Source: a virus
IMG/VR virus record: IMGVR_UViG_3300049845_000616
Span: 1-20,697 of that record
DNA: 20,697 bases
Reading direction: 5' to 3' (one strand)
In this document: piece by piece, positions 13,245 through 18,322 of the stretch
Position numbering within the stretch: the first letter of the stretch is position 1
Layout: each line of letters begins with the position of its first letter
Notes under the pieces: generated by a model
Database searches by the model: none
Told to the model about the DNA's origin: nothing
Seen by the model: the letters and a program-made list of their open reading frames with translations, nothing else
Translations under genes and position numbers: made by a program

Positions 13245-13268
13245 GGGGAGGGTCACTTGACCCTCCCC
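13245..13268. terminator. 10-bp GC-rich hairpin between gp32 and uvsX
   Basis: GGGGAGGGTC (13245-13254) is followed by the loop ACTT and its exact inverted complement (13259-13268). It lies between the gp32 stop (13278) and the uvsX binding site. A TTTT tract follows on the plus-strand side (after 13268), while on the minus strand no U-run follows. For gp32 mRNA it may therefore act as a partial terminator or 3'-end stabiliser rather than a full intrinsic terminator. Confidence 0.5.
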
Positions 13269-16889: not shown

Positions 16890-18041
16890 TCATTCTCCAA
16901 TGATGGTCAGGACCTGATCAACTTCATCGCCCAGCCAGGCTAGACGAACGGCATCGTACTGCGCACGGACGCTGCGCTCGACGACATGCTTGTCGGTACG
17001 TGTCTGTTGGCGAGCCAACAGCGTACCAAACGAGTTCCAGAACTCAGCCGCGACCACATGGTACGCGTGCTGACGCGCGGTTTGAACGAACATCGCGCGA
17101 CGCTTTCTCGAGGAGTTCACAACGTCTACGACGACGTCATGTCCCTCATGAGCGGCGCGCTTGAAGGTCTCATGCATCTTGGTCACGAAGTACTTGTCGA
17201 ACTCCGAGCCGTGATCGATCGTGCAGTACCGCCAGGCGAGGTCATAGAACTCGGGTGATGGCATGCTGGTTTTCTCGACACCAGTCTGGAGCGTGAACCA
17301 CTCTTCCTTGGTGTCGTCAGCGCTGATCACGCTGATGCCACGGGACATGAACCCAGGACGCAGCCCGTTGCGAAAGGTGGTCTTGCCAGAACCAGACGGC
17401 CCAATCAAGATGTACGCGTTCCTCGCGGCACGCGAGAACATTGGAGTTGCGTTGATGGAGTCAAAGACATGAATCCAGTCCTCGACCGCCGCAAGCTTCT
17501 GCTCGTGGTCGTCACTGATCCTGCCAGCGGCGTCCGAGCGCAGCACGTCATAGAACGTCTGGATGGTCAGCCCAACCTCATCCAGTGCGGAGATGGTTCC
17601 GATCTTGAGGCCAAGGCGCTTCTGCTTGTCCTTGTACCCATACGGAAGGTGATGCTCGATCAACCAACGGATGGCACGCGCCTGCAGAGGGCGGATGTGC
17701 TCGCGCAGGCCCATGCGCAGGTACGCGTCCATGAACCCGTTCGCGCTGGGCCCTTCGTGGCCAGCGTACCGTCGGTACACGGATCCATCCTCACGCTGCA
17801 CGACCTCCTCAGCAGAGGGCTTGCCAACGTCATGGAACAACAGCGCCATGCGGCTCACCAGGTTCTCATCTTCCGTACGGTGCGGGGCGAACCGCTGGTT
17901 GTACTGCTCAAGCACCATCTCCGTGTGCACTGCAACGTTGGCTTCACGGTGCCATGGGGAATCTTCAACGGTGCGCTCCATCTCCTGGTACTCAGGGGAC
18001 GAGCGGAACCGCGCCAAGAACGCGTCAAAATCAAAGGCCAC
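16890..18041 (-). CDS. HD phosphohydrolase / polynucleotide kinase fusion (HD-Pnk-like)
   Basis: This is a 383-residue two-domain enzyme. Residues ~30-190 form an HD domain with His39, His70-Asp71 (LFHDVGK), His95, His130-His131 and Asp170. Residues ~208-383 form a P-loop kinase with Walker A GPSGSGKT (214-221) and VVDVVN (about 301-306) as a likely phosphate-donor-side strand. Bacterial HD-Pnk proteins with this order heal broken RNA or DNA ends: the HD domain removes 2',3'-cyclic or 3' phosphate and the kinase phosphorylates the 5'-OH. T4 PseT does the same job with a different phosphatase domain on the other side. A role in repairing cleaved tRNA is inferred. No partner ligase is seen here. 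The start is GTG with AGGAGG four bases upstream, inside a hairpin. Confidence 0.85.
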   Translation of the reverse strand: MAFDFDAFLARFRSSPEYQEMERTVEDSPWHREANVAVHTEMVLEQYNQRFAPHRTEDENLVSRMALLFHDVGKPSAEEVVQREDGSVYRRYAGHEGPSANGFMDAYLRMGLREHIRPLQARAIRWLIEHHLPYGYKDKQKRLGLKIGTISALDEVGLTIQTFYDVLRSDAAGRISDDHEQKLAAVEDWIHVFDSINATPMFSRAARNAYILIGPSGSGKTTFRNGLRPGFMSRGISVISADDTKEEWFTLQTGVEKTSMPSPEFYDLAWRYCTIDHGSEFDKYFVTKMHETFKRAAHEGHDVVVDVVNSSRKRRAMFVQTARQHAYHVVAAEFWNSFGTLLARQQTRTDKHVVERSVRAQYDAVRLAWLGDEVDQVLTIIGE

Positions 18042-18044
18042 AAT

Positions 18045-18067
18045 GCCTCCTAGTCAGCCTAGGAGGC
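18045..18067 (-). promoter_or_regulatory. Hairpin covering the HD-Pnk ribosome binding site
   Basis: The minus-strand arm GCCTCCTAG (18067-18059), the loop GCTGA and CTAGGAGGC (18053-18045) give nine perfect pairs. The AGGAGG that serves the GTG start at 18041 lies wholly in the 3' arm. In any transcript entering from upstream the ribosome binding site would be masked. Confidence 0.7.
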
Positions 18068-18068
18068 T

Positions 18069-18096
18069 ATTGTACCGGGGATTAGCTCCTTGTCAT
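18069..18096 (-). promoter_or_regulatory. Sigma-70-like promoter at the HD-Pnk hairpin
   Basis: On the minus strand ATGACA (18096-18091, five of six to TTGACA) and TACAAT (18074-18069, five of six to TATAAT) are separated by 16 bases. The expected start is near 18062, inside the 5' arm of the hairpin, so its transcripts would lack most of that arm and expose the AGGAGG. Confidence 0.6.
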
Positions 18097-18115: not shown

Positions 18116-18322
18116 TCAGTGCGTGATCTCGCGGACGAAGATCCGAACCTCTGGCACGTGCATCGGGTGCACGACGTCCGTGACGTCGAAGTACGCCCCG
18201 TCAAGCACGACGCGCTCACCGATCCGAGGCGGCGGGCGCAGGACCGCGAAGCCGCGTGGGTCGAGCGCGATGGGCGTGACCTCGATGGGCGCACGGGTTT
18301 CGGAGTAGAAGATGTACTTCAT
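18116..18322 (-). CDS. Small unknown protein
   Basis: This is a 68-residue protein predicted to be mostly beta strand (KYIFYSET, GERVVLDGAYFDVTDVVHP, VRIFVREI). It resembles in style the many short phage accessory proteins but belongs to no family I recognise. The ATG overlaps the stop of the 59-codon gene upstream (ATGA) and no clear Shine-Dalgarno is present, so translation is probably coupled. It is the last gene of the small-gene run. The next 74 bases hold the HD-Pnk promoter and hairpin. Confidence 0.7.
   Translation of the reverse strand: MKYIFYSETRAPIEVTPIALDPRGFAVLRPPPRIGERVVLDGAYFDVTDVVHPMHVPEVRIFVREITH

Follow-up and report, generated by a model that had tools for sequence, protein, structure and literature searches.

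The window analyzed here, a 20.7-kb record of an uncultured giant phage (the whole stretch of 20,697 nucleotides), carries T4-like replication genes on its minus strand, namely, those for NrdA, NrdB, and UvsW-like, UvsX-like, and gp32-like proteins. The closest isolates to its UvsX are jumbo phages, at 37 to 40% identity, and IMG/VR holds related contigs of up to about 350 kb whose UvsX shares 55 to 77% identity with that of the window. Many of these related contigs contain, near uvsX, an HD-Pnk-like gene, which in the window occupies positions 16890 to 18041 of the minus strand (383 codons, phrog_6931, with a match to the AAA_33 kinase domain). Its product has an HD motif and, after it, a P-loop kinase domain, both conserved in homologues, with H70 and D71 as well as G214...G219, K220, and T222 invariant across 24 of them, and by homology it is predicted to be an RNA end-healing enzyme. 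Amino-acid identity to this protein is only about 50% even in the nearest relatives; its GTG start codon (18041-18039) is backed by a comparison of the N terminus with those of relatives.

HD-Pnk is part of a longer co-directional unit, in which minus-strand genes continue from upstream. An upstream ORF of 68 codons (18116 to 18322, minus strand) has its stop 48 bases ahead of the 5' arm of the hairpin described below, so that its ribosomes should not unwind this hairpin, and a terminator scan of the minus strand from 18322 to 18041 reported no terminator-like site. The nearest upstream promoter-like box is a TATAAT on the minus strand (19667-19662), located exactly 6 bases before an ATG (19655-19653). 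The small ORF that begins there is likely the leaderless head of an operon running toward pnk and, as such, the source of read-through RNA.

Elsewhere in the window, the NrdA ORF as listed begins at TTG 7460, and a TACAAT box sits 23 bases before ATG 7409 (window 7438-7407) with a Shine-Dalgarno-like stretch in between, suggesting that ATG 7409 is the true NrdA start. A perfect 10-bp hairpin (13245-13268) lies between the gp32-like and UvsX-like genes, with a Shine-Dalgarno sequence just outside it. CTAAATA boxes on the minus strand, one upstream of the gp32-like gene (14222-14216) and one upstream of a small ORF (3104-3098), resemble the T4 late TATAAATA and are possible late promoters of this clade.

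Layout and folding of the HD-Pnk leader

On the minus strand, the DNA leading into HD-Pnk consists of ATGACA, 16 bases, TACAAT, A, GCCTCCTAG, GCTGA, CTAGGAGGC, ATT, and the GTG start. Here GCCTCCTAG (18059-18067) and CTAGGAGGC (18045-18053) are the 5' and 3' arms of a hairpin with GCTGA as its loop; the 3' arm holds the Shine-Dalgarno sequence AGGAGG (18051-18046), and the 5' arm, an anti-Shine-Dalgarno sequence, lies mostly upstream of the predicted transcription start. A preliminary description of this DNA had placed AGGAGG in a perfect 9-bp hairpin at 18045-18067. These coordinates are right, and the pairing is even larger than claimed. In the read-through fold, ACAAT (18073-18069) of the -10 box TACAAT (18069-18074) extends the 5' arm outward and is paired to ATTGT (18044-18040), and GGT (18076-18074) pairs with GCC (18038-18036). 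At the start codon, the mask therefore consists of ATTGT-(G)-GCC (18036-18044) bound to GGT-ACAAT of the promoter, and the full helix comprises 17 bp interrupted by two single-base bulges. Thus, the GTG start codon would be masked as well.

The preliminary description had further read ATGACA (18091-18096), the 16-base spacer, and TACAAT as a promoter whose transcripts would start near 18062. This layout is correct and the predicted start falls in the 5' arm; the match itself is at chance level. A promoter scan of the window returned 3 sites versus 3.0 expected, with the -35-like hexamer not rising above chance on its own, and both hexamers are mediocre; the promoter match alone is worthless. 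No late promoter TATAAATA was found between 18116 and 18041, where the box is TACAAT with a -35-like hexamer. The distance from this -10 box to the start codon is 27 bases, not the approximately 6 bases of leaderless genes, and the predicted leader comprises about 21 bases and includes the Shine-Dalgarno sequence.

Folding of both RNA forms, which the preliminary description had put forward as a check, agreed with its expectation: opening the Shine-Dalgarno sequence costs about 14 to 15 kcal/mol in the read-through RNA versus 1.7 to 5.2 kcal/mol in RNAs with 5' ends from 18065 to 18059. These positions are, judging from the opening energy, the predicted transcription starts that would free the site. 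With 5' ends at 18070 to 18067, the site stays closed (10.5 to 10.9 kcal/mol), and a 5' end at 18066 gives 6.5 kcal/mol. Since the start expected from the -10 box, at approximately 18062, falls inside the 18065-18059 range, the Shine-Dalgarno sequence is predicted to be open in the proximal RNA. This RNA is not wholly open, in that the Shine-Dalgarno sequence is weakly paired to codons 2 to 4.

When only the DNA upstream of the predicted transcription start was shuffled, the opening cost was 6.2 ± 2.1 kcal/mol, versus 14.5 kcal/mol for the true sequence (p = 0.003); a second shuffle run of the upstream DNA gave p = 0.016, the floor of that run. With up to 3 mismatches allowed, the pattern was found a single time in the window, and 100 shuffles did not produce it. 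Perfect hairpins of at least 9 bp number 9 in the window versus 0.7 per shuffle, several of them being intergenic and some terminator-like; what is unusual at HD-Pnk is the position of the hairpin over the Shine-Dalgarno sequence, and not the hairpin or the promoter match themselves. A test for perfect stems cut at the predicted start proved too strict, as it split the 5' arm of the window and yielded only a weak signal, and it was replaced by the opening energy with shuffle and swap controls. A search for close DNA relatives of the HD-Pnk leader found none in phages. Taken alone, the window site is only suggestive, and it is the relatives that decide.

Predicted masking of starts in related jumbo phages

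Among 58 distinct pnk leaders (window included), TATAAT or TACAAT boxes are found at two preferred distances from the start. In 14 of the 58, against an expectation of 0.37, exactly 6 bases separate a -10 box from the start codon, a spacing that would mark a leaderless transcript; a second group carries the box 23 to 38 bases upstream, together with a Shine-Dalgarno sequence. Fifteen leadered pnk genes were tested, and those of the window, L118, L045, and L117 conceal their Shine-Dalgarno sequence in a hairpin with a 5' arm located in or beside the promoter, ahead of the predicted transcription start. The arms of these genes are unrelated in sequence (TTATAATTCCTTA / TAAGGAATTATAA in L045, AGCAGATTC / GAATCTGCT in L118, and ATCCTTGTC / GACGAGGAT in L117), and further stems are present in the leaders of L042 and L101. 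The combined p value for the 15 leadered genes is 0.006, or 0.045 without the window, and the pnk leaders alone provide modest support. The specific hairpin of the window is not conserved in the pnk genes of its nearest relatives (about 50% amino-acid identity), and the closest relatives are mostly apparently leaderless instead. A contig search of the genomes for pnk returned only distant HD proteins.

Other arrangements were also observed ahead of pnk. The leaders in L011 and L026 carry, in place of a mask, terminator-like hairpins directly upstream of the promoter, perhaps as another means of stopping read-through. In Salicola phage SCTP-2 (L268, 510-591), a long A/T-rich stem-loop and a late-type TATAAATA box precede the pnk homologue, indicating that the promoter class of pnk differs between phages.

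The mask is not special to HD-Pnk: masks of unrelated sequence recur at many genes of related jumbo phages. Our class sample consisted of 7 whole or nearly whole related jumbo genome records plus related loci. Gene starts in it were called mechanically, some of the class boxes are spurious, and all transcription starts are predicted; such errors in starts and boxes should dilute, not create, the signal of the swap test described below. The distance from TATAAT/TACAAT to ATG shows a sharp peak at 6 (53 versus a background of approximately 6) and a broad peak at about 24 to 33. The swap test covered 148 non-redundant genes with a box 19 to 37 bases before a Shine-Dalgarno start; in each, the segment ahead of the predicted transcription start was traded for that of another gene with a similar G+C content. 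Opening the ribosome binding site costs 7.79 kcal/mol with the true segments versus 6.18 ± 0.17 kcal/mol with the swapped ones (z = 9.2, with p at the floor of 5000 permutations), and stems scoring at least 8 number 29 versus 3.5 ± 1.8. Genes without a box that were given a mock start and the same swap treatment yielded z values of 0.06 and 0.39. By position, the excess has a z of 8.4 at the ribosome binding site, 2.1 just after it, and 0.8, 0.5, and -0.7 further downstream. By genome, z reaches 6.6 in G007, 4.6 in G005, 3.5 in G002, 3.4 in G010, and 2.9 in G003; G009 (z = 1.2) and G004 (z = 0.1) show no pattern. Pairing averaged by position is raised only modestly, suggesting that some of the genes, not all, carry the signal.

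Examples of such masks are those of L264:12885 (TCCTGTTGGTCA / TGACCAACAGGA), L255:3990 (CTCCGTGGTA / TACCACGGAG), and L169 (ACGGCTCCA / TGGAGCCGT), whose 5' arms fall either between the -35 and -10 boxes or around the latter. The arms differ from gene to gene, even inside one genome. The RNA ligase gene of G002 (L197:6050), whose promoter score is low, has one of the strongest predicted masks, which is at most a hint that the guarded genes include repair genes.

A second set comprised 67 apparently leaderless genes, with a box 5 to 7 bases before the ATG. Here the AUG and the next nine bases are likewise masked by promoter DNA (4.91 versus 3.88 ± 0.21 after swapping, z = 5.0), as exemplified by TGCCCATAGTTGAA-TATAAT-TTCAACTATGGGCA at position 2854 of L036. 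In leaderless phage mRNAs, a 5'-terminal AUG is recognized, according to Brock et al. 2008 as cited in PMC5312081, and an internal AUG without a Shine-Dalgarno sequence is expected to be poorly used. The leadered and leaderless layouts would thus share one rule, namely, translation from the gene's own promoter only. The jumbo genomes G005 (L159-L176) and G002 (L193-L209) abound in apparently leaderless genes: in their called genes, we counted 14 and 11 distance-6 boxes, respectively, and G005 has 21 occurrences of TATAAT-N6-ATG versus 0 of the reversed pattern.

Probable insulation from read-through and its alternatives

We consider it probable that HD-Pnk is under a promoter-gated translation mask that insulates the gene from read-through. 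According to this model, the promoter DNA between the -10 box and the transcription start, box included, would also serve as an anti-ribosome-binding site. Read-through RNA from the upstream operon would fold the 17-bp helix over AGGAGG and the GTG, and ribosomes would be blocked; RNA from the local promoter would start within the 5' arm, lose most of it, and leave the site open apart from the weak fold with codons 2 to 4. The amount of HD-Pnk would then follow its own sigma-70-type promoter alone, and related jumbo phages would use the same mask at many short-leader genes, or a leaderless start with equal consequence. We also lean, with more reserve, toward a wider reading, in which the early-type promoters of this clade of uncultured T4-like jumbo phages encode gene-specific anti-ribosome-binding sites that, at many genes with short leaders or none, license own-promoter RNA only. 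Such a rule would hold across the genome and keep translation uncoupled from read-through by many independently evolved RNA masks, with no protein regulator.

Alternatively, the leader could act as a temporal switch identical to that of T4 gene e, with read-through RNA silent in one phase and the proximal promoter active in another (turning the gene on late, or turning it on early and silencing late read-through), which we regard as unlikely. The architecture is shared with e, soc, and I-TevI (PMC3014915, PMC2988022). T4 early-type promoters get shut off, and a mask would possibly confine the product to the phase in which the early promoter fires. However, the proximal box is TACAAT and not the late TATAAATA, and the upstream box at 19667-19662 is also of the sigma-70 type. 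Because both promoters look sigma-70-type, insulation is favored over a clock, and the earlier proposal that the mask times HD-Pnk is left unsupported.

Rather improbable is a ribosome-binding-site hairpin present in all transcripts, acting as a thermosensor or as the target of a protein or small RNA, with a spurious promoter match. While the chance-level score of the local promoter is in line with this idea, and an RNA begun at 18067 or further upstream would retain the hairpin, pnk relatives with their own box strongly favor set -10-to-start distances, and the masks have their pairing partner ahead of the predicted transcription start and are destroyed by promoter swapping. It is quite improbable that the hairpin at HD-Pnk arose by chance and has no function: the p value of 0.003 for a mask at this start codon, together with the class-wide excess, weighs against it, even in a window that has nine perfect hairpins of at least 9 bp. 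More doubtful still is a terminator, or a PeSL-type cassette of promoter plus stem-loop, that ends the upstream operon. The promoter does adjoin a G+C-rich stem-loop, and the arm pattern of the window matches one unrelated phage contig (L005), where a T-rich stretch follows the stem in a terminator-like manner; at HD-Pnk, in contrast, the stem is followed by ATTGTGG without a T-run, the terminator scan reported no minus-strand site at 18045-18067, and the 3' arm is the Shine-Dalgarno sequence itself.

The mismatches within the stems bear on whether the pairing acts in RNA or in DNA, as G-T and A-C mismatches are equivalent in a DNA dyad and G-U is tolerated in an RNA helix. In the best stems, scored without pair preference, G-U accounts for 26 of 52 mismatches versus 252 of 1252 in swapped stems (p = 3e-6), and A-C is not enriched (6 of 52 versus 122 of 1252, p = 0.63), although at the highest stem scores A-C is somewhat raised too, in small numbers. 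Swapped stems serve as the reference because raw G-U and A-C counts are confounded by the purine-rich Shine-Dalgarno sequence, which makes the controls lean toward G-U. This enrichment of G-U without one of A-C points to RNA and not to a DNA operator. The least probable explanation, a DNA-level dyad forming a repressor operator over the -10 box and transcription start with incidental RNA pairing, would fit the inverted repeat of the window, since a repeat that overlaps -10 to +20 is in a classic operator position, but it is disfavored by these mismatches, by an excess confined to the ribosome binding site, by the presence of the window's sequence only once in the window, and by arms that vary between genes even within one genome, which argues against a shared operator.

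If promoter-gated insulation is indeed at work, phages with dense genomes and few terminators could, even under heavy read-through, tie the output of each gene to the promoter of that gene, and a second message would be written into the -35/-10 spacer and the stretch just ahead of the transcription start.

Comparison with known systems

As a positive control, we applied the analysis to the late boxes of T4, where gene e ranked first and I-TevII was also picked out, both being known cases; the T4 late-box set as a whole was borderline (z = 2.0, p = 0.052). The pattern is absent from KVP40 (n = 6), IME-SM1 (n = 11), and jumbo phage Munch (n = 44, z = 0.4), which argues that it is general neither to short leaders nor to jumbo phages. 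At the TATAAT/TACAAT boxes of T4, one gene is outstanding, regB (NC_000866 62279-62740, L274), with 18.4 versus 3.4 kcal/mol after swapping: the spacer TTTTCCTCTTGACTG of its promoter is complementary to its ribosome binding site CAGTTAAGAGGAGAA, with two G-U pairs. The established post-transcriptional control of regB is self-cleavage at the Shine-Dalgarno sequence, and the papers searched contained no report of the pairing between spacer and ribosome binding site. The regB promoter belongs to the early class (PMC3014915), and a gene e-like mask on an early gene would be a new prediction for this classic gene.

Occlusion of the ribosome binding site that is lifted by a proximal late promoter has been described for T4 e, soc, 49, I-TevI, I-TevII, I-TevIII, and segB and for Aeh1 mobE (PMC3014915, PMC2988022), and all known T4-type cases are described as late genes (PMC2988022, PMC3014915). 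The likeness to T4 gene e drawn in the preliminary description stands for architecture and proposed mechanism, which the computation and the relatives support, and falls for the late-promoter class, as the box is sigma-70-type. As in the e group, the Shine-Dalgarno sequence lies in a hairpin that only upstream-initiated RNA would form, and the placement of the putative proximal promoter, with a start predicted near 18062, would give an RNA without most of the 5' arm. Unlike the e group, with its late promoter, the window has a sigma-70/early-type box, and masks of this type recur at many genes of one clade, also over leaderless AUGs.

A similar logic is found in IS10/Tn10, where external read-through RNA folds over the transposase start and internal-promoter RNA does not; that system guards one transposon gene, whereas here a phage clade features many independent masks. 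Leaderless phage mRNAs likewise tie translation to the adjacent promoter, and many pnk relatives look leaderless; the pnk of the window differs from them by its leader of about 21 bases with a Shine-Dalgarno sequence. The PeSL cassettes of RB49/phi1-type phages also have a sigma-70-like promoter adjoining a stem-loop, but their stems are terminators, whereas the stem of the window is without a T-run and carries the ribosome binding site. So far, occlusion of the ribosome binding site undone by internal initiation has been described as peculiar to a small number of T4 late genes and of homing endonucleases. In this clade of jumbo phages, it would be a design that recurs, independently evolved, at promoters of the sigma-70 type, accompanied by leaderless starts of the same logic.
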